From NCBI RefSeq assembly GCF_900299525.1, contig NZ_OMKA01000020.1, positions 248,001 through 312,000 on the forward strand: a stretch of DNA of 64,000 nt, in the 5' to 3' direction. This document shows positions 34,529-46,265 of this stretch, piece by piece. The notes beneath the pieces were generated by a model that saw only the letters and a program-made list of their open reading frames with translations, searched no databases and had not been told where the DNA came from. The DNA is from Aquimarina sp. Aq78. Its GTDB lineage: Bacteria; Bacteroidota; Bacteroidia; Flavobacteriales; Flavobacteriaceae. The stretch's first letter is position 1. Every line of letters starts with the position of its first letter. Made by a program: the position numbers and the translations under genes.

Positions 34529-36094
34529 TTAAGATATTAACGGTAATTTAATTATAAACGTGGAGCCTTTTCCCCTTTCACTCTCCACCCATATCTGACC
34601 ATGATGATCATCTATAATTCTCTTTACGTATGTTAGTCCCAATCCGTGTCCTTTTACATTATGAAGATCTCCGGTATGTTCTCTAAAGAACTTTTCAAAA
34701 ATCTTTTTCTGTGCTACTTTACTCATTCCAATTCCTTGATCACGAACTTTAAGAACAATACTATTTTTTACATTTTCTGTATATACGTCTATTTTAGGTT
34801 CATCTTCTGAATATTTTATGGCATTATCCAAAATATTCACAATTACATTAGTCAAATGACTATCATTGGCTAATACTGTTGTTTTAAGTGCGCCTAAATG
34901 CATTTTCACATACCCTTCTCTATTTTCTACAATCAGAGATACATGGGTAATCGCATCTTCAATAATATCATGCAATTCTTGCCTTTCTTTTTTAATATTA
35001 AGTTCATTTTTCTCTAACTGAGATATTCTTAATACATTTTCTACCTGGGCATGCATTCTTTTATTCTCTTCACGTATCATACTCATATAACGCTGCACTT
35101 TCTCTGGATCCCCTCCTATTTTTGGGTTCTTTATAGAATCTAATGCCAAATTAATAGTGGCAATTGGAGTCTTAAGCTCATGCGTCATATTATTAATAAA
35201 ATCTGTTTTAATTTGTGATATCTGTCGTTGCTGCATCAATTGTGATAAAGCACTGGAATATGCAACTACAATAATTAACGTAAATATTATAGACAATATG
35301 GCCATTCCTTTGATGGAAGAAAGTACATATTGTTTTTTTCCAGTAAAATTAACATATAACTGATACTCACTTACTCCTTCATCATTTACAAAAAGTGGTA
35401 TTGCATATGTTGTTGGATAATCCAAACTAAAATCATCTGAACGTACTTTGGTAGCTAAAGCATTACTGTATATAGCATATTCAAAGTCTACTTTTATATC
35501 TCTCTCTTCCAGTTCTTTCCTCAACAGATAATCTATTTCTCTTTTTTGAACTCTTCTATGTATTGGTATAAAACTGGCAATTTCTCCTATTACTATTTCA
35601 TAATCCATTCTCTGGAGATCTGTTAACCCCCGTATTCTCTCTAGTTTGGATTTAGAATTTTGCTTTACAAAATCACTTTTTTCATCTTGTATAGCAGAAT
35701 CGGCATTACGATTTAGAATATTCTTTAATCGAACCGTATCAATATTTAAATTTATAAAAGACGAAAACAACTTATAATCTTCTTCTAAAATACCATCTGT
35801 ATGGGTAAACGACTTTGTCGTATTATCAATACTAATATTCAAAAGCTGACGTATAGTTTTGTTATCAGGTTCTTCTATGCTATCCAGAATCTCTTGTAAT
35901 GGAAAAAACATTTCTTCAAACTCTCTGTATTGAATTCTATTAGATACAGATATCAGTATTTGTTTCGCATTAAAGGAAAACTGTTCCTCATTATTCTCTA
36001 CAGTGTTGTTAATCCAATATCCCTGAACAAAAATAATCCCAATTAACGATAAACTCATCAGGATTATCAGCAACACGAATAACCTTTTATTCAT
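34529..36094 (-). CDS. Sensor histidine kinase (RprX-like)
   Basis: 521 residues. The first membrane helix is about 7-28, a large extracytoplasmic sensor region (about 29-260) follows, and the second helix is about 265-285. There is no obvious HAMP. The dimerisation/phospho-acceptor helix contains FINNMTHELKTPIATI (His about 302). The ATPase has the N box (NVIVNILDNAIKYSE), G1 (VRDQGIGMS), F box and G2 (GHGLGLTYVK). It is the first gene of a two-gene operon with the response regulator. The -7 element TACTTTTG ends only four bases before its ATG, which implies a leaderless message. Confidence 0.95.
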   Translation of the reverse strand: MNKRLFVLLIILMSLSLIGIIFVQGYWINNTVENNEEQFSFNAKQILISVSNRIQYREFEEMFFPLQEILDSIEEPDNKTIRQLLNISIDNTTKSFTHTDGILEEDYKLFSSFINLNIDTVRLKNILNRNADSAIQDEKSDFVKQNSKSKLERIRGLTDLQRMDYEIVIGEIASFIPIHRRVQKREIDYLLRKELEERDIKVDFEYAIYSNALATKVRSDDFSLDYPTTYAIPLFVNDEGVSEYQLYVNFTGKKQYVLSSIKGMAILSIIFTLIIVVAYSSALSQLMQQRQISQIKTDFINNMTHELKTPIATINLALDSIKNPKIGGDPEKVQRYMSMIREENKRMHAQVENVLRISQLEKNELNIKKERQELHDIIEDAITHVSLIVENREGYVKMHLGALKTTVLANDSHLTNVIVNILDNAIKYSEDEPKIDVYTENVKNSIVLKVRDQGIGMSKVAQKKIFEKFFREHTGDLHNVKGHGLGLTYVKRIIDDHHGQIWVESERGKGSTFIIKLPLIS

Positions 36095-36098
36095 AAAT

Positions 36099-36106
36099 CA
36101 AAAGTA
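36099..36106 (-). promoter_or_regulatory. Leaderless promoter candidate of the histidine kinase operon
   Basis: Minus strand reads TACTTTTG, an exact TAnnTTTG match, four bases ahead of the ATG. Transcription would start at or beside the first codon. Confidence 0.5.
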
Positions 36107-36178
36107 AGACTTTAACATTTAGCTACTTTAGGGTTTAACCAAATGTTAACAAAATGAAAGATTCGGATTACAAACGTT

Positions 36179-36757
36179 TTATAGAGATATTTCTTCATGA
36201 ACCTTATGTACTTGATTTTCAGTATCTTTTATGTTTTTATTATATATTACAAAATCGGCTAATGGGATTTTTCGAGTGTCTTCCCACTGGTTATTCATCC
36301 TAGAAAGTATATCTTCTTTGGTCGTTTTGTCTCTTTTTAGGACTCGTTGAATTCTTGTTTCTATTGGTGCTGATACAAGAATTGTATAATCACACTGTTT
36401 GTAGCCTTCATTCTCAAAAAGTATAGCTGCTTCTTTTACTACGTAGTTTCCTTTTTGATTACTTTTCCAACAATCAAAATGGCTTGCCACAGCAGGGTGA
36501 ACAATTGCATTTAACTGAAGTAGTTTTGAGGAGTCATTAAAAACCACATTTGCAATATAAGGTCTGTTTAATTCTCTGTTTACATAGGAATCATTTCCTA
36601 ATAACGCGATAATTTGTTTTTTTACTGATTCATCTTCATTCATAAGTTTTTTAGCTTCGACATCAGCAATATAAACTGCAACTCCTAGTTGTTCAAACAT
36701 TTTAGCTACTGTAGATTTTCCGCTACCTATCCCACCTGTTAGACCTACTACCTTCAT
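36179..36757 (-). CDS. coaE: Dephospho-CoA kinase
   Basis: 192 residues. It phosphorylates dephospho-CoA, the last step in coenzyme A synthesis. The P-loop is GLTGGIGSGKST, followed by VYIADVEAKKLM and the CoA-binding VVKEAAILFENEGY and LVSAPIETRIQRVLKRD signatures. It is the last gene of a GT2-YbbR-CoaE transcription unit (8 bases after YbbR). CoaBC, which makes phosphopantetheine, is elsewhere in this window (49.6-50.9 kb). Confidence 0.95.
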   Translation of the reverse strand: MKVVGLTGGIGSGKSTVAKMFEQLGVAVYIADVEAKKLMNEDESVKKQIIALLGNDSYVNRELNRPYIANVVFNDSSKLLQLNAIVHPAVASHFDCWKSNQKGNYVVKEAAILFENEGYKQCDYTILVSAPIETRIQRVLKRDKTTKEDILSRMNNQWEDTRKIPLADFVIYNKNIKDTENQVHKVHEEISL

Positions 36758-36765
36758 ACTTCAAC

Positions 36766-37725
36766 TTATTTCAAAACTACAAACTGAACTTGTTTCATCT
36801 GCAAACGCACATCATGGATATAATCTGGTTTGTTTACTAGTTCTAAAGTTAAAAACAAACTTTCTTCGGATGCTTTAGCATAATCGGCTACTACCATAAA
36901 ATCTCTTGGACTTATTTCATTATACTTATCTAATCCAACTCTGTATACGACAGAAATTTCTTTAGGAAAAATTTTAATTTCTGCACCTTCAGGTATATTA
37001 TTTAATGTTATAGGTATTTTTTGATCTCCCTCTGTGAATTTACTCACCAAAACGTTAGCTTCTACTTGTGCTGGAGCAACTTTAATGGTAGATGGTAATT
37101 CTTCAGTACTTATATCTAATTTTGAAGTGTAGTTAACATTTAGCCCTTCTAAATTTAGATTTTCTGTTGTTATATATTGTATAGTATCTATAACTTGTGA
37201 AGGACCACTAATTGTTATAGAATCGGGAGAGACTACTAATCCCTTATCACTACCATATCCAATAGCATACTGAATCTTCTCTGCTATTTTAACAGGGATT
37301 TTTTTTTCTAGATTTTGATCCAGTTTTAATCGTAATGTATCTTTTTGCACGGATAAAACTCTTCCTTTAAAGTCTAATTTATTTTTTAATACCGAAGATT
37401 CTTTATCAACACGAAAATAATATTGATCTTCGCTATTAATAACTGCATCTTCTACATTAAATTGTAATGTTGGCCTGCTCCAATTATGATTCATCAATCT
37501 AAAACCATTTCCGTTAAGGACCATTCTTAATGTTTGATCACTCTGATCGTTAAAGATTTTGTCTTGTGGTATATTGGTATATTGTATTGCTACCTCTACT
37601 TCTTGGGTATAATTTTTAGAGAATTGTATAAATAGCCACAAGATTGAAGTGAATATTAGAAAAAACAAAAAGGTTTTTACATTACTCCTTTTTAAAGAAA
37701 ATCTATTCTTTTTTCTATCTGACAT
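36766..37725 (-). CDS. YbbR-domain membrane protein
   Basis: 319 residues with one N-terminal membrane helix (about 17-35: TFLFFLIFTSILWLFIQFSK). The rest lies outside the membrane with two or more YbbR-like beta domains (for example KKIPVKIAEKIQYAIGYGS, and VVSPDSITISGPSQVIDTI with the family's 'PSxIxISGP' pattern). YbbR proteins regulate DacA-type cyclases in Firmicutes; in Bacteroidetes the role is not settled. Here it sits between a glycosyltransferase and coaE, spaced 5 and 8 bases from them, and is surely co-transcribed. Confidence 0.82.
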   Translation of the reverse strand: MSDRKKNRFSLKRSNVKTFLFFLIFTSILWLFIQFSKNYTQEVEVAIQYTNIPQDKIFNDQSDQTLRMVLNGNGFRLMNHNWSRPTLQFNVEDAVINSEDQYYFRVDKESSVLKNKLDFKGRVLSVQKDTLRLKLDQNLEKKIPVKIAEKIQYAIGYGSDKGLVVSPDSITISGPSQVIDTIQYITTENLNLEGLNVNYTSKLDISTEELPSTIKVAPAQVEANVLVSKFTEGDQKIPITLNNIPEGAEIKIFPKEISVVYRVGLDKYNEISPRDFMVVADYAKASEESLFLTLELVNKPDYIHDVRLQMKQVQFVVLK

Positions 37726-37730
37726 ACAAA

Positions 37731-38735
37731 TTACTTTGAAAAAAACAATTTCTTAAATTGCTTTTCGGGTACTTTTTTCAATAGATGAATATAATAATAA
37801 GATTTTAGGAATCCCTTTCCGTATCCATAAAATTGTATCAAAACTGCCAAAATAGACTGTATACCTATAGATACATTCTTATATTCTAGAGTAGCACCTA
37901 GAAAAATAATCCCTAAATATATTCCTAAAATAGCAATAAAATACCACCATCCCAAAAGTGCGGTTACAACAGAGAACACAATATATATTAAGAATAAAGT
38001 AGGAAACCAATACGTAAGTTTGGCAGTATCTGGGTGCCATCGATTTAAAATAGGACGTACTAATCCAAATTTATTAACCTGGATATAAAATTTTTCCCAG
38101 GAAATTCTTCTTTTATGAAACACCTTAGCGTCAGGAATTAATGTAGTGTCATATCCTAATTTCCATAATCTTATAGTAAGATCCGGATCTTCTCCGGGAT
38201 GTATATTTCCGAAACCACCCGAAGCCTCAAAAGCTTCTTTTGACAATCCCATATTAAAACTACGGGGTTGAAATTTGCCTAATGTATTTTTACGCCCTCT
38301 GATACCGCCAGTAGTTAAATATGATGTCATACTATAGCTTATCGCTTTCTGAAGATTAGAAAAGCTTTGATGAGCATCATCAGGGCCTCCGTAGCAATGT
38401 ACAAAAGTATCAGATAAAAAACTTTCAGCTTTAGACAAATACTCTTTGGGCAATAACACATCACTATCAAGAATAACGAAGTAATTACCTCTTGCCTTAC
38501 GCATACCATAGTTACGTGAATCTCCCGGACCTGTATTCGATTTCTGGTAATAACTTATAGATAATCTATCTGTAAAAGCTTCTATAACCTCCTTAGAGGT
38601 GTCAGACGATCCATCTTCTACAATTACAATCTCATATGGCTTGGTATAATCCATAGCCACCATGCTATCCAGCAGCTCTTTAATCTCATTTGGCCTGTTA
38701 TATACTGGCACAATAAAAGAGAAATGTATTTCCAT
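37731..38735 (-). CDS. Family 2 glycosyltransferase (membrane-anchored)
   Basis: 334 residues from ATG at 38735; an upstream in-frame start at 38777 is rejected because it lies inside a terminator and in front of the promoter. The GT-A domain begins MEIHFSFIVPVYNRPNEI, with the nucleotide-sugar DxD in VILDSDVLLP and the GEDPDLTIRLW (ED acceptor). Hydrophobic segments at about 245-265 and 270-290 anchor it in the membrane. It probably builds an envelope or surface glycan; substrate unknown. It is the first gene of the unit with YbbR and CoaE. Confidence 0.88.
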   Translation of the reverse strand: MEIHFSFIVPVYNRPNEIKELLDSMVAMDYTKPYEIVIVEDGSSDTSKEVIEAFTDRLSISYYQKSNTGPGDSRNYGMRKARGNYFVILDSDVLLPKEYLSKAESFLSDTFVHCYGGPDDAHQSFSNLQKAISYSMTSYLTTGGIRGRKNTLGKFQPRSFNMGLSKEAFEASGGFGNIHPGEDPDLTIRLWKLGYDTTLIPDAKVFHKRRISWEKFYIQVNKFGLVRPILNRWHPDTAKLTYWFPTLFLIYIVFSVVTALLGWWYFIAILGIYLGIIFLGATLEYKNVSIGIQSILAVLIQFYGYGKGFLKSYYYIHLLKKVPEKQFKKLFFSK

Positions 38736-38739
38736 ATTA

Positions 38740-38747
38740 CAAAGGTA
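38740..38747 (-). promoter_or_regulatory. Leaderless promoter candidate of the GT2-YbbR-CoaE unit
   Basis: Minus strand reads TACCTTTG, an exact TAnnTTTG match, four bases ahead of the ATG at 38735. It fixes the start of the glycosyltransferase. Confidence 0.6.
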
Positions 38748-38761
38748 AGTGGTATAAATAA

Positions 38762-38793
38762 AAAATCCCATTACCAATTAAGAATGGGATTTT
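38762..38793 (-). terminator. Intrinsic terminator after fabI
   Basis: Perfect 11-bp stem (38762-38772 with 38783-38793; arm AAAATCCCATT), 10-base loop, and a T-run on the minus strand. It separates fabI from the next minus-strand unit. Confidence 0.88.
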
Positions 38794-38828
38794 GCACTAA
38801 TTTATAGTAGTTTTTTTAAAAAAAATCT

Positions 38829-39647
38829 TTATTCTTCTCCTACAAATTTATCCATCACCAACTGACTTACTCCCATATTAGAAAAGCCTCCGTCGTGATA
38901 TAAATTCTGAAGTGTTACTTTTTTGGTCAGATCAGAGAATAGTGTAATTGTATAATCGGCACACTCTGCTGCTGTAGCATTACCTAGAGGTGACATTTTA
39001 TCTGCATATTCAATAAATCCATCAAATCCTTTCACTCCTTTTCCTGCTGTTGTTGGGGTTGGAGACTGAGAAATTGTATTTACTCGTACTTTACTATCTC
39101 TACCAAAGAAATATCCAAAACTACGAGCGATAGACTCTAAATACGCTTTGTTATCTGCCATGTCATTATAGTCAGGAAACACTCGCTGTGCTGCCATATA
39201 TGTCAAACCAACTATGCTTCCCCAATCATTCATTGCCTTTTTCTTATATAGGGTTTGCATTGTTTTATGAAAAGAAAGTGCAGATACGTCTAATCCCTTT
39301 TGTGTCCAGTCATAGTTCTGATCTGTATAATGACGTCCTTTACGCACATTTATCGACATCCCTATAGAATGTAAAACAAAATCAAGTTTACCTCCCAAAA
39401 TTTCTGTTGCCTTATCCACAAGATTTTCTAAATCCTCTAATGAAGTAGCATCTGCAGGTATAACTTGAGTATTAGTTTTTTCTGCAAGAGTATTTATAGC
39501 ACCCATTCGCATTGCGACAGGAGCATTGGTTAGAACAAAACTTCCTCCTTCTTCATAAACACGCTCAGCGGTTTTCCATGCGATTGAATTTTCGTCAAGT
39601 GCCCCAAAAATAATTCCTCTTTTACCTTTTAATAAATTGTATGACAT
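38829..39647 (-). CDS. fabI: Enoyl-[acyl-carrier-protein] reductase (NADH)
   Basis: 272 residues. It reduces trans-2-enoyl-ACP in the last step of each fatty acid elongation cycle. This is the SDR-type FabI: the divergent Rossmann start GKRGIIFGALDENSIAWKTA (residues about 8-27), the catalytic Tyr-Met-Ala-Ala and Lys (LTYMAAQRVFPDYNDMADNK), and the NTISQSPTPTTA loop with the triclosan-contact region. A one-mismatch -7 element (TATCTTTA, 39682-39689 minus strand) precedes it. Followed by a strong terminator, it is monocistronic. Confidence 0.95.
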   Translation of the reverse strand: MSYNLLKGKRGIIFGALDENSIAWKTAERVYEEGGSFVLTNAPVAMRMGAINTLAEKTNTQVIPADATSLEDLENLVDKATEILGGKLDFVLHSIGMSINVRKGRHYTDQNYDWTQKGLDVSALSFHKTMQTLYKKKAMNDWGSIVGLTYMAAQRVFPDYNDMADNKAYLESIARSFGYFFGRDSKVRVNTISQSPTPTTAGKGVKGFDGFIEYADKMSPLGNATAAECADYTITLFSDLTKKVTLQNLYHDGGFSNMGVSQLVMDKFVGEE

Positions 39648-39689
39648 TTAATTATAAATTAAAGTATGATTATACGAGTGGTAAAGATA

Positions 39690-39952
39690 ATAAAACGCCC
39701 CAAACCACAACTAATCGAAATAGAATTTAGTTAAGTATCTGAAAAAAATATTTAAACGATGCACGACTATATAATGTTAATCAAGCTTCATAACACTACA
39801 TGATAATTTGATATACTTTTTATTTAAAGTTATAATGCTTCTACCTCTTCATGAAACAGTAACCTATGATTGTGATAGCTTATGAATAAAATTGGAAGTC
39901 TAAAAAATCGACTTTTAAAATCTGACAAAAATTAAAAATTAATCTATTATTA
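39690..39952. other. Non-coding AT-rich region upstream of the surface-protein locus
   Basis: Left part of the ~790-base gap between fabI (minus) and the 970-residue protein gene (plus). No open frame of note and no repeat that I can see. It shows only AT-rich sequence with scattered ATG/stop codons. The structured part of the gap begins at 39953. Confidence 0.4.
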
Positions 39953-39953
39953 G

Positions 39954-39984
39954 TTGATTTTTATCAACATATACCTTATATTTG
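39954..39984 (+). promoter_or_regulatory. Strong promoter candidate for the T9SS surface-protein operon
   Basis: TTG (39954-39956), 20 bases, then TATATTTG (39977-39984) fits TTG-N17-23-TAnnTTTG in full. GTTGAT-TTTT-ATCAAC (39953-39968) is a palindrome over the -33 region, a possible operator. Transcription from here would leave a 5' leader of about 450 bases before 40440. Confidence 0.6.
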
Positions 39985-40075
39985 ATATATAATTTTATTG
40001 AGTATTGTTTTCAAAATATCATTAATTTGGTATGTAAGATTATGTACAAAATAAACCTCCCCATAATGTATATTA

Positions 40076-40119
40076 TTTCCCCCCCTTAGAAAAATATACG
40101 ATTTCATTCCCCCCTTAGA
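40076..40119 (+). repeat. Tandem C-tract motif pair in the leader
   Basis: TTTCCCCCCCTTAGA (40076-40090) and TTCCCCCCTTAGA (40107-40119): a run of 7 and 6 C followed by TTAGA, 29 bases apart. Striking in such AT-rich sequence. The two G4 tracts downstream at 40401-40404 and 40433-40436 (four bases before the start codon) could pair with them. Confidence 0.55.
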
Positions 40120-40125
40120 GTATTT

Positions 40126-40153
40126 GAAATAATTATAGAATTATTTCTATAAT
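40126..40153 (+). promoter_or_regulatory. Two mutually exclusive hairpins in the leader
   Basis: GAAATAATT (40126-40134) pairs with AATTATTTC (40139-40147) across 4 bases; the overlapping ATTATAGAA (40132-40140) pairs with TTCTATAAT (40145-40153), also across 4 bases. Both stems have 9 perfect pairs and cannot form together, like a simple RNA switch or a dyad-rich protein site. Confidence 0.5.
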
Positions 40154-40188
40154 AGAATGTTTAATTAAACAAAGATGATGTGCCTATT

Positions 40189-40215
40189 ATTAATAAAAAC
40201 AATGTTTTTATTAAT
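40189..40215 (+). repeat. Perfect 12-bp inverted repeat in the leader
   Basis: ATTAATAAAAAC (40189-40200), 3-base loop, GTTTTTATTAAT (40204-40215). It is too AT-rich and lacks a proper T-tail for a typical terminator, but would be a stable extra stem in the leader RNA. Confidence 0.55.
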
Positions 40216-40439
40216 ATCAGCAGATAATTAATTCTTAGTGATATAAAATGTTCAATTTATGTATTGGAATAATTCTTTATATAACAAAATTAATCATTAT
40301 TAAGAATATTACGTTATGAAAAAAAAATACCAAACCATTTATTGTCAATGTCTTATGTTTTTATTTTTTAAATTTTAAATTTTAAAACACTAAAAAATTA
40401 GGGGCTTTTTTCTTTGAATACATTAATAAAACGGGGCAT

Positions 40440-43352
40440 ATGAAAATTATTACGTTAACTCTCTTGCATAAGAGGCTCACCCCTCTTATTTGTCTTTTTG
40501 CACTACTATTCTCATCAACTTATGTTTACGGGCATTACTCTCATGAACACAAGTACACCTCTTTGATCCCAAAGGACACTACTACAACTAAAACTGAATA
40601 TAATCCATTAAGTCTTACTATACTTAAAATACAGGATGCCACAATCACCGGAATATGTTGTGATGGCAAGGCTAAGGCTGTCGCATCTGGCGGAAAACCT
40701 GGCTACACATACCAACGGAGTGCTTCTGCTAATAATCAAACCACAGCAACAGCAAGTCTTCTTACTGATCGTACACACAGTGTTACAGTAACCGATGCTA
40801 ATGGAACTCAAGTAACCCAAAGCATCATCATTAAATGCCTTAATACTTGCGATATTAAAGCTACAAATACTATAACCAATGTATCTTGTAACGGCGATGC
40901 CACGGGATCTATTGATCTAACGGTGGAGAACGGTACTCCTCCATTTATTTTTGCATGGAGTAATGGTTCTTCTGATGAAGATTTAACTAATGTAATAGCC
41001 GGAACATATTCAGTAACAGTTACCGATGCTACAAATTGCACTACTACTAGTTCAGCCACAATTACCGAGCCCAGTAAAGCCATATCTGCTTCTATTACCA
41101 AACTAACCCATATTAGTTGTAAAGGTTCAGGGCTAATTAACATCGAAGGAGCTGGTGGAGTACCACCTTATTCATATTCTATCGATAATGGAGTTAATTA
41201 CCAAACTAGTGAAACATTTTCAGATCTCGCTCAAGGAAATTACACAATAAAGATACGTGATGCTAATGGTTGCATTTCTATAGTCTGCACAGCAATTTTA
41301 TATAATTGTACCGATGCCGTAACAGACATTAATAACACTTTTATTAATACACCCGTTTCTGGTAATGTATTAACCAACGATGAAGATCTCGAAGGAGATA
41401 TACAGACGGTAACTACCACTACTGTAACTACTACAGAAGGGGTTATTGTTGGTATAGCCCCTAATACGGGAATCTACACTTATACACCTCCTACTGGATT
41501 TACAGGAGAAGACTCTTTCGAATATACTATTTGTGACAATGGCACTCCGATTGCTTGTGACACTGCTACTGTATACATTGAAGTACTTCCAATTGGAGAT
41601 CCTAAAAACGAAGCACCAATTGCAAATCCAGATACTGCAATTACCGAAATAAACACTCCAGTAAATGGTAATGTATTAGTTAATGATTTTGATCCCGATG
41701 GTGATCCCATTATAGTAACAACAACTACAGTAACCACCACAGAAGGAGTTATTGTAGCTATAGATCCCAATACAGGAGCATATAACTATACGCCTCCTAC
41801 CGATTTTACCGGTGATGACACTTTTGAATATACCATCTGTGATAACGGTAATCCTGCTTTATGTGATACTACTATTGTTATAATTACCGTTATAAAAAAC
41901 CAGAACAATAGTACTTTTGCTAATGATGATGCATATTTTACCGCATGCGAAAATATTCAAGGGAATGTGCTGGATAATGATTTTGATCCCGAAGGAGATA
42001 CACAAACCATAAATATAATTCCGGTAGATGATGTAGATAACGGAATCCTTACCCTTAATATTAATGGTTCCTTTACTTACATTCCTAATTCTGGGTACAC
42101 CGGTACAGATAGTTTTATTTATACAGTATGTGACAATGGCTCTCCAACTGTTGCTTGTGATCAAGCCACTGTATACATTACCATCTCGGCCACCACACCT
42201 CCCGACGTAACTAATTGTAATGTAGCAGATGAAACAATCGAATGTAATGGAACAAATAATGAAACCATAGCTAACATCTGGAATGCTGATAATATTGCAG
42301 AATTAGAATCCTGTGTTTCTGACAGTTGTAATACAGATTTTACTGATCAAATAAGTTCAAATTATGATTTTAATAATTTGGTAAGTTCTTGTGGTTTAGG
42401 CGGAACTATAGAAGTTATATACACTATTACAGATAAAAATGGAGACATAACCACTCTTACAGCAACTCTTACACTGTATGATTCTACACCTCCAGATCTA
42501 ACAAGCTGTACAATTACTGATTTAACTTTAGCGTGTTCTACAACTAATATTGAAGAAATTGCTAGTCAATGGAATAATAATAATATTGCAACGCTAGAAA
42601 CTTGTGCAACTGATAATTGTAACGTGAGCGCAGCCGCATTAGTAACTTCGGATTACAACTTTGATAATATAACAGATGGAGCTCTGGTAGTAGAATACAA
42701 CATTACAGATGATTGTAACAACACAACTACACTACAAGCAAAAATAACATTCGAAAACAATTCTGTAATCGCAAACGACACCAGCTTATGTGCTCTTGAT
42801 GAAATAGAATCACAAGTTTTTGATTTATTCGACCTATTAGAAGGCGATTATAGTACCAATGGAATCTGGGAAGTTACCTCTGGAAATGCATCTGTAATTG
42901 ATGATCACTTTTTTGATCCATTAAGCATAGAGTTATTAGACAAAGATGCTTCTGAAGAGATTGCATTTAGTTACACAGAAAACAACTTAGCCTGTCCAAT
43001 ATATCTCGAAACAACAATAGAAGTACATAATAGGTGTGCAGTATTCTCTTGTGGAGAAGATACTATCAAAATTTCAAAAGTAATTACACCAAATGGAGAT
43101 TCGTACAATGAATATTTTGCAGTGAATGGTGTAGAAAATTGTGGTTACGTTGTAGATGTTAAAATTATTAATCGTTGGGGGGCAATTATATACAAATCAA
43201 GTGATTATCAAAATGATTGGAATGGCACAGCACACCAATCATCTTTAGGATCAGCAAATCAAGTACCTAGTGGTACATATTATTGTATTGTAACTATAAA
43301 CAATAGTGGTTTAAAACCATTTAGCACCCCGTTATATATTGGTACAAAATAA
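40440..43352 (+). CDS. T9SS-exported surface repeat protein (SprB-type and cadherin-like repeats)
   Basis: 970 residues. A signal peptide (about 1-31) is followed by three SprB-like repeats (about 63-130, 146-210, 219-280; for example VSCNGDATGSIDLTVENG and YSVTVTDATNC). Three tandem Ig/cadherin-like repeats come next (about 290-383, 394-484, 492-583), each with GNVL-x-ND-D-D and TGDDTFEYTICDNG-type ends. A disulphide-rich region (about 590-770) follows, then a CHU_C-type T9SS sorting domain (about 873-970: KVITPNGDSYNEYF, INRWGAIIYKSSD, then SGTYYC). It should be exported by the Por secretion system and held at the surface, perhaps as an adhesin. It is the first gene of a PorP/OmpA operon. 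Confidence 0.9.
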   Translation: MKIITLTLLHKRLTPLICLFALLFSSTYVYGHYSHEHKYTSLIPKDTTTTKTEYNPLSLTILKIQDATITGICCDGKAKAVASGGKPGYTYQRSASANNQTTATASLLTDRTHSVTVTDANGTQVTQSIIIKCLNTCDIKATNTITNVSCNGDATGSIDLTVENGTPPFIFAWSNGSSDEDLTNVIAGTYSVTVTDATNCTTTSSATITEPSKAISASITKLTHISCKGSGLINIEGAGGVPPYSYSIDNGVNYQTSETFSDLAQGNYTIKIRDANGCISIVCTAILYNCTDAVTDINNTFINTPVSGNVLTNDEDLEGDIQTVTTTTVTTTEGVIVGIAPNTGIYTYTPPTGFTGEDSFEYTICDNGTPIACDTATVYIEVLPIGDPKNEAPIANPDTAITEINTPVNGNVLVNDFDPDGDPIIVTTTTVTTTEGVIVAIDPNTGAYNYTPPTDFTGDDTFEYTICDNGNPALCDTTIVIITVIKNQNNSTFANDDAYFTACENIQGNVLDNDFDPEGDTQTINIIPVDDVDNGILTLNINGSFTYIPNSGYTGTDSFIYTVCDNGSPTVACDQATVYITISATTPPDVTNCNVADETIECNGTNNETIANIWNADNIAELESCVSDSCNTDFTDQISSNYDFNNLVSSCGLGGTIEVIYTITDKNGDITTLTATLTLYDSTPPDLTSCTITDLTLACSTTNIEEIASQWNNNNIATLETCATDNCNVSAAALVTSDYNFDNITDGALVVEYNITDDCNNTTTLQAKITFENNSVIANDTSLCALDEIESQVFDLFDLLEGDYSTNGIWEVTSGNASVIDDHFFDPLSIELLDKDASEEIAFSYTENNLACPIYLETTIEVHNRCAVFSCGEDTIKISKVITPNGDSYNEYFAVNGVENCGYVVDVKIINRWGAIIYKSSDYQNDWNGTAHQSSLGSANQVPSGTYYCIVTINNSGLKPFSTPLYIGTK

Positions 43353-43363
43353 AAAAAGAATTA

Positions 43364-44305
43364 ATGGGCATCGCAAAAAATAAAATAGCAGTACTATTAA
43401 TACTATGCATTGGTTTTATCGGATATGCACAGCAATTACCGCAGTTTACGCAGTATATGTTTAATACCATATCCATAAACCCAGCCTACGCAGGTAGCAG
43501 AGAGACATTAAGTATTGTAGGTTTACACAGGAGTCAATGGACAGGAATACAAGGAGGTCCTCAAACTCAGACACTATCTGCCCATTCTCCCTTACGAAAC
43601 GAAAAAATAGGAGTTGGATTATCCGTAATACGTGATACTCCTGGTTTTGAAAACTACTTATATATTTATGGTGATTTCTCGTATTCTATTAATATTACAG
43701 ATAATTCGAAATTAGCTTTTGGGTTTAAAGGCGGGGTTACTAATTACAATCTAGATCAGGAATTTTTAAATGATCCTGAAGTAACTGGGGATCCTTTCTT
43801 CGGAAATTATTCTAATCGATGGAATCCTAATATTGGAGTAGGGTTATATCTCCATTCAGACAGATGGTACTTTGGACTATCATCACCAAGAATACTAAAC
43901 ACAGACAATAATCGTACTACCGAAACGTCTACGGTAGAGTATGTAGCACTAGAACGCGTTAGTTATTATTTTACAGGCGGGTATGTATTTGACCTCTCTA
44001 CAAACACAAAATTAAAACCATCGGCTCTTTTTAAAGCAACTAATGGCGCACCAATTTCTGTTGATTTAAATGCGAACCTTCTGTTTTATGAAAAATTTTG
44101 GCTCGGAGGCTCATACAGATACAATGAACATACTGCTTCTATAGGAGCCTTAGCTGATTTTCAAGTGACAAAACAAATTAGAATTGGCTATGCCTACGAA
44201 CATTTTATTTCAGATATACGACCATATATAGGTGGTACTCACGAAATTTTACTGATGTATGAATTGTTTAATGAAAAGCGTGTTAGATCTCCCAGGTACT
44301 TTTAA
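43364..44305 (+). CDS. PorP/SprF-family type IX secretion outer-membrane protein
   Basis: 313 residues with a signal peptide (1-22, ending GYAQ). The PorP/SprF beta-barrel opens QQLPQFTQYMFNTISINPAY and AGSRETLSIVGLHRSQWTG, with later strand repeats (GVGLSVIRDTPG, FSYSINITDNSKLAFGFKGG) and GLSSPRIL; this N-terminal phrase is the family signature. SprF assists secretion of SprB-type proteins. The gene starts 11 bases after the repeat protein and overlaps the upstream reading region of the OmpA gene by stop-near-start, so the three form one operon. Confidence 0.94.
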   Translation: MGIAKNKIAVLLILCIGFIGYAQQLPQFTQYMFNTISINPAYAGSRETLSIVGLHRSQWTGIQGGPQTQTLSAHSPLRNEKIGVGLSVIRDTPGFENYLYIYGDFSYSINITDNSKLAFGFKGGVTNYNLDQEFLNDPEVTGDPFFGNYSNRWNPNIGVGLYLHSDRWYFGLSSPRILNTDNNRTTETSTVEYVALERVSYYFTGGYVFDLSTNTKLKPSALFKATNGAPISVDLNANLLFYEKFWLGGSYRYNEHTASIGALADFQVTKQIRIGYAYEHFISDIRPYIGGTHEILLMYELFNEKRVRSPRYF

Positions 44306-44315
44306 TACCATATTT

Positions 44316-46265
44316 ATGAAAAATATAATATTTCTAATTTTAGCATTTCTGTTTAGCACTTTTATTCATGCTCAAAAAGTAAAGGTAGCAGATAAATATT
44401 TTAGAGATTTCGCATATTTAAAAGCCATAGAATTATATAAAGAAGCATTAAAAAAAGAAGATAGCAGCAAACATATTCTATCCAGAATAGGAGATTGTTA
44501 TTATAACAATTCTAACTCAGAGCAAGCATATTTTTGGTACAACAAAGCTGTTAACAAATACGACAAAATACATCCTCAATATATTTATAAGTACATACAA
44601 ACCTTACGAAGTTTAGGTAAATACAATGAAGCTAATCAGTGGCTTAAAAAGTTTAAAACACTTCAACAAAATGGTAAGCACACTAAAGATTTTGAAAGTA
44701 TAAGTCTCGAAAAGTTTCAAGAATTATCTACTCCAAAAGATATTCATGTTCGGGTAATAAACTTAAACTCCAATAGTAAATATTCTGATTTTGGTGGGTA
44801 TGAACAAAATGGGAATTTATATTTTTCATCTTCTAGAGCAGATGAAAATACTAAAGGCAAAAAGAAAATTTACAAATGGAATGGAGAACCTTATTTAAAT
44901 ATTTATCAATCTATAATTGATCGAATTGATTCGACCATTGTAGTAAAGGACATTGCTCCCATTTCTTCAGACAAAGTAAATTTAAAAAACGAACACGAAG
45001 GGACATTAACAATCACTAATGATGGTAAGACACTCTATTTTACCAGAAACAACATTAACAAAAGAAAGAAAACATCTTATGATAAAGAAGGTAATTCTAA
45101 TCTAAAACTGTATAGAGCTAGGCTTAAAGGTAATCAATGGACAGCTGTAGAAGAATTACCATTTAATGATAAAACTTTCTCTACAGGACACCCAACATTA
45201 AGTCCAGACGAAAAGACCTTATATTTTGTATCAGATAGAAAAGGAGGATATGGTAAATCAGACATATATAAAGTTGCTATTAATGATGATGGTTCTTTTG
45301 GAACTGTAAAAAATTTAGGTGATAAAATTAATACCGAAGGCCGGGAAGTATTTCCTTTTGTAGCAAAAGACTCTACATTATATTTCTCATCAGACAGTCA
45401 TATAAACCTTGGGTTTTTAGATATTTATAAATCCAACATACTTAAAAAAAGAGTTGATGAGGATATAAAGATTAAGAACCTTGGAGCTCCTTATAATAGT
45501 GGTTATGATGATTTTGCTTTCTTCTTAAACCCAGATGGTGATTCTGGATATTTCTCTTCTAATAGAACTGGAGGTAAGGGAAGTGATGATATATATACAT
45601 TTGACAAGTATGAATGTAAACAAGTTTTAACCGGCGTAACATACGATAAACTCACCCTAGAATCACTTGCTGATGTTACAGTAAAAATTATTGATGAAAC
45701 TGGTAAAATTATTAGCACTACTCTATCTGACAACAACGGCAAATACATTTTTGAAGAAATATCATGTGGAAAAACATATTCTATCTTAGCTACCAAAGCA
45801 AATTACAGGCCTGATTCAAAACAGTTCTCAACAACTACAACTAATGGAAGTGAGGTCAAATTAGATTTATATTTAACCCCACTAATTATAAAAAAAGAAA
45901 TTGTAGTAAATCCTATTTTCTTTGATTTTGACAAATATAATATTCGTGCAGATGCAGCATATGAATTAGAGAATATTGTTAATGTAATGCGAGAAAATTC
46001 TAAAATGATTATCAAGATTGAATCTCATACAGATAGTCGTGGTAGTAAGAAGTACAACATGAAACTTTCTCAAAAACGTGCTAACGCTACCAGAGGTTAT
46101 ATTTTATCCAGAGGAATTGCTGCAGAAAGAATTCCGAGCGCTATAGGCTATGGTGAATCCCAATTATTAAACCAGTGCGGTATTAGCAACAAACCTCCCT
46201 GCACCGAAAAAGATCATGATGAAAATAGACGTTCAGCTTTTTTAATACTCAATGACTATCAATAA
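44316..46265 (+). CDS. OmpA-family protein with TPR and PD40 (Tol-like) repeats
   Basis: 649 residues from ATG at 44316; the frame runs 19 codons further up but the signal peptide MKNIIFLILAFLFSTF starts here. The order is: signal peptide (1-19), TPR-like helices (about 25-130), PD40/WD40-like beta-propeller blades (about 145-445; for example GHPTLSPDEKTLYFVSDRKG), a CarboxypepD-type Ig domain (about 455-525), and a C-terminal OmpA peptidoglycan-binding domain (about 535-649, FFDFDKYNIRADAAYEL and ESHTDSRGSKKYN). This architecture is the usual companion of PorP/SprF and anchors the complex to the cell wall. Confidence 0.93.
   Translation: MKNIIFLILAFLFSTFIHAQKVKVADKYFRDFAYLKAIELYKEALKKEDSSKHILSRIGDCYYNNSNSEQAYFWYNKAVNKYDKIHPQYIYKYIQTLRSLGKYNEANQWLKKFKTLQQNGKHTKDFESISLEKFQELSTPKDIHVRVINLNSNSKYSDFGGYEQNGNLYFSSSRADENTKGKKKIYKWNGEPYLNIYQSIIDRIDSTIVVKDIAPISSDKVNLKNEHEGTLTITNDGKTLYFTRNNINKRKKTSYDKEGNSNLKLYRARLKGNQWTAVEELPFNDKTFSTGHPTLSPDEKTLYFVSDRKGGYGKSDIYKVAINDDGSFGTVKNLGDKINTEGREVFPFVAKDSTLYFSSDSHINLGFLDIYKSNILKKRVDEDIKIKNLGAPYNSGYDDFAFFLNPDGDSGYFSSNRTGGKGSDDIYTFDKYECKQVLTGVTYDKLTLESLADVTVKIIDETGKIISTTLSDNNGKYIFEEISCGKTYSILATKANYRPDSKQFSTTTTNGSEVKLDLYLTPLIIKKEIVVNPIFFDFDKYNIRADAAYELENIVNVMRENSKMIIKIESHTDSRGSKKYNMKLSQKRANATRGYILSRGIAAERIPSAIGYGESQLLNQCGISNKPPCTEKDHDENRRSAFLILNDYQ

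Follow-up and report, generated by a model that had tools for sequence, protein, structure and literature searches.

In Staphylococcus aureus, RNAIII and the related UCCC RNAs carry C-rich hairpin loops which can dock on G-rich sequences at start codons, and mask in trans the start regions of their targets (PMC2837412). C-rich hairpin loops that might meet G-rich sequence by a start codon are predicted in Aquimarina sp. Aq78, in the predicted 5' leader of a gene encoding an adhesin of the type IX secretion system (T9SS). The leader lies in the 792-bp intergenic region separating this gene (970 amino acids, aa) from fabI, within a window of 64,000 nucleotides (nt) of contig NZ_OMKA01000020.1 (positions 248,001 to 312,000; genome size 5.97 Mb). 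Coordinates, numbered from the first letter of the window, are given in Table 1. RNAIII is a separate RNA, active in trans and on Shine-Dalgarno sequences, whereas the C-loops and the G-tract of the Aquimarina leader share a single predicted messenger, and the ribosomes of Bacteroidota ignore ordinary Shine-Dalgarno sequences.

For Flavobacterium psychrophilum 64 structured 5' regions have been listed, some of them without an Rfam match (PMC9723704). The Aquimarina leader is alike in being partly structured, flavobacterial and devoid of Rfam matches; the genes named in that section of the paper (pheA, hisG, alaS etc.) include no adhesin-PorP operon. The remFG-sprCDBF gliding operon of F. psychrophilum, which also encodes an adhesin along with SprF, has two tested promoters, of the sigma-54 (SM4) and SM5 types (PMC9723704), whereas the Aquimarina locus has a TAnnTTTG promoter and a long leader. 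In F. johnsoniae, rpsU is autoregulated by ribosomes lacking bS21, a control requiring an extended Shine-Dalgarno sequence (PMC9976891). Both rpsU and the adhesin gene have an element with G close ahead of the start codon, but the latter has only GGGG, 3 nt from the ATG, and an extended complementarity to the 16S 3' tail, of the kind on which bS21-type control depends, was not seen by eye.

In the comparison described below, the promoter, the leader, its C-tracts, the G-tract and at least one hairpin are conserved, and a conserved transcribed leader of some kind is very probable. Tentatively, we favor a genus-specific leader RNA acting in cis, the C-loops of which would pair with the G-tract at the start codon and limit translation of the adhesin. 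T9SS adhesins serve attachment and surface movement in flavobacteria; to our knowledge, post-transcriptional control of their messages has been little explored. That Bacteroidota ribosomes ignore ordinary Shine-Dalgarno sequences raises the question of how translation can be controlled at their start codons, and a start-adjacent G-tract with matching C-loops on one predicted RNA makes a case that can be tested directly, by a few base changes.

Promoter, leader and tracts

The locus was compared in 16 Aquimarina intergenic regions, the window copy included; the close relatives are Aquimarina species, and the same locus is present in A. macrocephali, A. megaterium, A. atlantica, A. longa, A. sediminis and A. 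algiphila. The eight nearest sequences, the window copy again included, are referred to as the closest eight; they are mutually related and do not count as independent. The original prediction, made from the letters of the window alone, had placed here a T9SS surface-protein operon preceded by a full promoter match, about 450 nt of AT-rich non-coding DNA and C-tract repeats. All these points hold, the operon label being borne out by the domain content of the genes.

The promoter, TTG-N20-TATATTTG, is of the Bacteroidota type. The strict form was found in 13 of 14 orthologous regions and in the more distant L025 and L070, L028 alone being without it. No other strict match to TTG-N17-23-TAnnTTTG occurs in the whole intergenic region, the leader included. 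Such a match lies upstream of 4 of the 57 window genes (a mechanical pick of open reading frames, ORFs, of at least 150 aa). A transcription start near 40410 would have left the leader untranscribed, and had been named beforehand as the result that would speak against it; the TTTG found there reads TTAG in the other seven of the closest eight, and this candidate was rejected.

With its start set 6 nt past the -7 box (by hand, at a near-match to this box, in L028), the leader of the window measures 449 nt. It is AT-rich (50 C and 45 G) and contains no ORF of 80 aa or more. Leaders are 388-449 nt long in 12 regions, 218-282 nt in the other four. By the measure of F. psychrophilum, where the 5' untranslated region has a median length of 24 nt and a mean of 65 (PMC9723704), a leader of ~449 nt would be unusual. 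Among the closest eight, the leader is better conserved than the spacer ahead of the promoter: mean identity is 0.872 versus 0.768, gaps make up 4.8% versus 16.8%, and 56% versus 24% of the columns are invariant. Conservation extends through the leader to the ATG, and the region seems to be under constraint as far as the start codon. The order of elements, a promoter followed by a conserved and apparently non-coding leader before the gene, is that of a 5' cis-regulatory leader RNA.

Runs of four or more C (4-7 nt) starting in the first 150 nt of the leader were found in all 16 species. There are three or more C-tracts in 12 leaders, as in the window, two in three leaders and one in a single leader, and the spacing from start to start is mostly 19-31 nt. 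In all leaders but L018 (15 of 16) a run of GGG or longer starts 5-8 nt ahead of the start codon, and a second G-tract resides at -36 to -39 in 11. The last G-tract is fixed in position relative to the start codon, the C-tracts relative to the promoter. GGG at a distance of up to 12 nt from the ATG occurs in just one of the 57 window genes, the adhesin gene. When the window leader was shuffled 5000 times with dinucleotides preserved, at least three C4 runs turned up in 9.8% of the shuffles, at least two G4 runs in 0.2%, and both in none. In Flavobacterium the anti-Shine-Dalgarno tail of the ribosome is kept sequestered and ordinary Shine-Dalgarno pairing is not used (PMC9976891); it is therefore unlikely that the start-adjacent G-tract is kept for the ribosome.

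In the mechanism tentatively favored, transcription would begin just past the conserved promoter, and the first ~150 nt would fold into small hairpins presenting the C runs in their loops. A G run right against the start codon, often joined by a second one ~38 nt upstream, would lie in weakly structured, AU-rich sequence. Pairing of C-loops with G-tracts, across ~300 nt in the long leaders, would hide the start codon and reduce initiation, and hence lower translation of the adhesin and of the genes behind it, until some condition or factor shifts the balance. We infer transcription of the leader, the meeting of C-loops and G-tracts, the consequence for translation, and the involvement of a signal. 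A speculative addition is that blocked initiation could let a hairpin within the gene (40468-40489) end transcription too. In a more specific form, which is fairly unlikely, up to three C-loops would compete for one or two G-tracts in a self-targeting translational switch, repression being graded or tuned by tract length, and the same C-loops might act in trans on another gene of this genome that begins GGGGC-ATG. If true, a self-targeting switch would sit in a phylum without ordinary Shine-Dalgarno pairing.

Hairpins and the proposed contact between tracts

The hairpins were analyzed in 12 of the 16 leaders (alignment A2 and covariance model R1), L023, L025, L028 and L070 being omitted as divergent or short; L028 was brought in through the model. 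The complete row HP1-HP4 is found in the single-sequence folds of five leaders (L009-L013) and HP2-HP4 in L014; the other six differ. HP2 and HP4 are best supported, HP3 least. As in RNAIII-like regulatory RNAs, a C-rich motif sits in a hairpin loop, most clearly in HP2: 11 of 12 leaders, folded locally, have C-tract 2 in a loop, and the remaining one, L016, has lost this tract. In L016 (L016:1888-2000) the HP2 stem is still formable, by eye in alignment A4, and a UUAG loop is left in place of the C-tract.

In 10 of 41 C-tracts, pairing between the two flanks exceeds that of their shuffled versions (p≤0.05), the mean z over the tracts being -1.24; the same holds at 4.7% of 192 other leader positions, where the mean z is -0.13; C-tract 2 contributes most of the signal. 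Three of the 44 tracts, within 10 nt of the leader start in L023, L025 and L070, were skipped. In the plain alignment A3, 85.4% of cells pair, a value lowered to 42-59% by sliding the partner. Seven pairs changed on both sides in A3, compared with 2.9 in shuffles (reached by 3 of 500), or nine cells compared with 3.1. In A4, which is fitted to the model and leans toward structure, the numbers are nine pairs versus 3.6 (1 of 500) and 13 cells versus 3.9 (none of 500). G-U pairs occur in the stems (UG:4, UG:4 and GU:4 at three pairs). The covariation suggests, with moderate strength, that structure is kept, as expected of a 5' cis-regulatory leader RNA.

The original prediction had proposed to look in relatives for covarying stems with a covariance model, and had taken a lack of conserved stems as evidence against a regulatory leader. 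Moderate covariation was found, and relatives share the stems at least partly. The view that this is a structured regulatory leader stands as regards promoter, length, C- and G-tracts and some hairpin covariation, not as regards overall folding, which is weak: the whole leader folds at -75.7 kcal/mol (z -1.68), only marginally above chance, 5 of 100 shuffles being equally good. An inverted repeat reported as 12 bp is present and is 14 bp long; among the relatives only the nearest one, L010, has it in perfect form, and it was dropped as the key element. In the RNAalifold consensus of the closest eight a shorter hairpin, with one covarying pair, is kept at this site. Competing hairpins had also been foreseen. 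Arms 40134-40151 and 40262-40279 can pair at 83% as an alternative to the local hairpin 40133-40152. Across the alignment, 88% of cells agree with a competing pairing of HP4 and a segment downstream of it, but covariation does not exceed that of shuffles (95 of 500 reach it), and this competitor was set aside. A hairpin around G-tract 1, formed by an A-run and a U-run, was likewise rejected, p≤0.05 being obtained at 1 of 12 sites (L014, 0.04). The inverted repeat and the overall folding are less important than the promoter, the C- and G-tracts and the hairpin covariation. As to the proposed nature of the leader, an RNA switch or a protein-bound leader, a partly structured and apparently conserved leader survives, while nothing points to a small-molecule switch. 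Riboswitches and known leaders were discarded, as Rfam 15, among the families of which Flavo-1 presumably figures, gives no match at gathering score in the window and none at E up to 5 in 39648-40500.

The predicted contact was examined by folding. Run on the 12 leaders without any hint, RNAalifold joins C-tract 1 to G-tract 2, and C-tract 3 to G-tract 1. Ensemble folding predicts pairing between G-tract 2 and a C-tract at ≥0.5 in 10 of the 15 leaders with that G-tract; when either G-tract is counted, 12 of 16 leaders reach this value. It is the presence of the tracts that makes the contact possible, and what evolution offers in its favor is that both partners are kept.

Several results weigh against the favored mechanism. 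The partners chosen by RNAalifold are unsettled, since the closest eight give C-tract 1 with G-tract 1 and leave G-tract 2 without a C-tract, and the ensemble does not favor pairing of G-tract 2 with C-tracts in L010, L014, L015, L017 and L070. With the tracts fixed and the rest shuffled, mean C-G pairing is 0.52-0.98 in eight leaders, the value of the real sequence being equaled in 1-13 of 25 shuffles; the surrounding sequence therefore adds little, and reinforcement of the pairing by flanking sequence was dropped as a candidate. Both sides of the contact are simply constant, and no compensatory change was seen. L018, devoid of G-tract 2, still has four C-tracts. As to the hairpins, HP3 is weak, close kinship among the sequences inflates the covariation counts, and further pair types are no more frequent than in shuffles (194 of 500 reach the A3 value). 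Finally, no such arrangement was seen in the usable regions from Winogradskyella and other genera with a homologous adhesin-PorP operon. Of 17 regions fetched from 68 non-Aquimarina loci, 15 were usable, the operon start not being reliably placed in L206 and L207; they have 0-2 C-tracts each and no strict promoter, and GGG precedes the ATG in one only (L209, which has no C-tract).

Table 1. Coordinates (window numbering) of the predicted leader, its elements and the adjoining genes
Feature	Position	Strand	Remarks
fabI	38829-39647	-	
Promoter	39954-39984	+	-33 TTG 39954-39956; -7 TATATTTG 39977-39984; spacer 20; strict form in 15/16 orthologous regions
Predicted 5' leader RNA	39991-40439	+	~449 nt; start predicted from promoter
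HP1 (ATTATG/CATAAT)	40039-40067	+	C-tract 1 in loop; local folds of 5/12 (L009-L013); moderate covariation
C-tract 1	40059-40062	+	in HP1 loop, last C paired
HP2	40068-40099	+	C-tract 2 in loop; best supported; 11/12 local folds
C-tract 2	40079-40085	+	in HP2 loop
HP3 (ATTTCA/TGAAAT)	40101-40130	+	C-tract 3 in loop; local folds of L009-L014; weak, little covariation
C-tract 3	40109-40114	+	in HP3 loop
HP4 (TTATAGAA TTAT TTCTATAA)	40133-40152	+	local folds, covariation counts
Perfect inverted repeat, 14 bp	40188-40216		arms 40188-40201 and 40203-40216, 1 nt apart; perfect form common only to L010
G-tract 1	40401-40404	+	GGGG at -39; GGG or longer in 11/16
G-tract 2	40433-40436	+	GGGG at -7, 3 nt from ATG; GGG or longer in 15/16
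T9SS adhesin gene	40440-43352	+	970 aa; SprB repeat, Big_9, cadherin-like and CHU_C domains
PorP/SprF gene	43364-44305	+	follows adhesin gene
OmpA-like gene	44259-46265	+	PD40 repeats; follows PorP/SprF gene

Alternative explanations

The alternatives are taken in decreasing order of probability. It is somewhat unlikely that the C-rich loops serve as docking sites for a partner in trans, either an RNA-binding protein or a G-rich small RNA, which would control stability or translation of the operon. The placement of C-tracts in the loops of local hairpins would suit such a partner, as would their persistence in L018 in the face of the loss of G-tract 2. The distant leaders L028, L023, L025 and L070 keep C-tracts amid changed sequence, and a stem can be drawn by eye around one of these; in the tract test of these leaders position 57 of L028 alone falls below 0.05 (p 0.017), position 32 of L025 reaching 0.053. 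A trans partner, however, leaves unexplained the G-tract found next to the ATG in all leaders but one.

It is distinctly unlikely that the region functions at the level of DNA, with a transcription factor binding to the repeated C-tracts and inverted repeats of an extended operator that lies downstream of the promoter. The recurrence of C-tracts at distances of mostly 19-31 nt and the perfect 29-nt palindrome of the window copy would fit an operator, but the palindrome is perfect in just one other leader, and conservation in the closest eight runs on through the leader to the ATG. The G-U pairs in the stems are what RNA would show, and the anchoring of the last G-tract to the start codon and of the C-tracts to the promoter also argues against an operator.

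Read-through into the adhesin gene could be controlled by a translated upstream ORF or by premature termination, whether intrinsic or by Rho at the C-tracts; this is very unlikely. All 12 aligned leaders have, at -99 to -124, an invariant ATG with an A-run behind it; in ten of them a frame of 20-21 codons starts there. The window's upstream ORF (40316-40378) has 20 codons, but frame and peptide drift among relatives, L017 and L018 being frame-shifted and L019 stopping after five codons, by eye; a leader-peptide attenuator, which would show a conserved short peptide, was rejected on these grounds. C-rich, G-poor RNA suits Rho, and a terminator-like hairpin resides in the adhesin gene at 40468-40489, with a similar fold in seven of the closest eight, the window copy counted. 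L015, however, lacks this intragenic hairpin, which does not recur in that form beyond the close group, and a simple consensus scan listed no terminator-like site in the leader. The hairpin (AUAAGAG/CUCUUAU) is followed by a T-rich stretch, and both fall within the codons of the adhesin signal peptide.

It is highly improbable that transcription from this promoter yields an independent small RNA with C-rich loops, the adhesin gene having another start site nearer its ATG: the loops do resemble those of the S. aureus regulatory RNAs (PMC2837412), and an Escherichia coli sigma-70-type match (11 of 12 positions of the E. coli consensus) is present at 40124-40153, but matches of this kind are no more frequent than chance predicts (46 found, 52.6 expected from shuffles, in 36000-46000), the leader has no second strict -33/-7 match, the simple consensus scan found after HP4 no terminator of the kind an RNAIII-like RNA would own, and conservation continues to the ATG.

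Distribution of the leader and neighboring features

The covariance model of the C-hairpin module finds one match each in 15 of 66 genus genomes at E≤1. Twelve matches are strong (E≤1.5e-8) and all reside at this locus, as does a weaker one in genome G035 (E 0.68); the two remaining matches are weak (E 0.18 and 0.63). L028, at the same place as the G035 match, scored E 0.02 in a separate search with the model, which misses the shorter, divergent leaders L023, L025 and L070 (genomes G050, G011 and G028). No strong second copy was found in any of the 66 genomes, and a regulon was discarded. Because the strong matches all lie at one locus and the 15 usable regions of other genera lack the arrangement, the leader is taken to belong to this operon in this genus, rather than to a widespread RNA family. 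Searches with simpler patterns were made in the genome carrying the window. A triple C-tract pattern has ten matches, one of them at the adhesin locus, and the HP2 loop pattern, with up to two mismatches, gives 19 sites versus 28 in the control, with no sign of extra copies. No match was obtained in the plasmid collection, and a literature search of partial coverage returned no report of an Aquimarina leader RNA.

Six further Aquimarina fabI loci were inspected. Five have no adhesin gene; they feature an ORF on the minus strand, and neither a strict promoter nor a tract cluster in the stretch scanned. The sixth, L025, has the adhesin gene, the promoter, three C-tracts and GGGG before the ATG. 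In these loci, promoter and tract cluster go with the adhesin operon. In Lutibacter citreus (L136:1703-1830, read at ≤6 kb) C6 and C4 tracts come soon after a strict promoter of the homologous operon, and no G-tract precedes the ATG.

GGGG-ATGAAA sites are not enriched in the genome carrying the window (45, versus 42 for the reversed control). Among 30 such loci read, judged by ORF, L220 alone resembles another true gene start. The gene (contig C16, near 467700) starts MKKITLVIMMMVCIIATAQTTISGKVVDDG, with GGGGC directly before the ATG and no C4 run in the 500 nt upstream; its product, judged by eye only, resembles a TonB-dependent receptor.

The most conserved part of the intergenic region is the 104 nt adjoining fabI (39648-39751), where identity among the closest eight is 0.951; this segment is probably the promoter and leader of fabI, on the minus strand.

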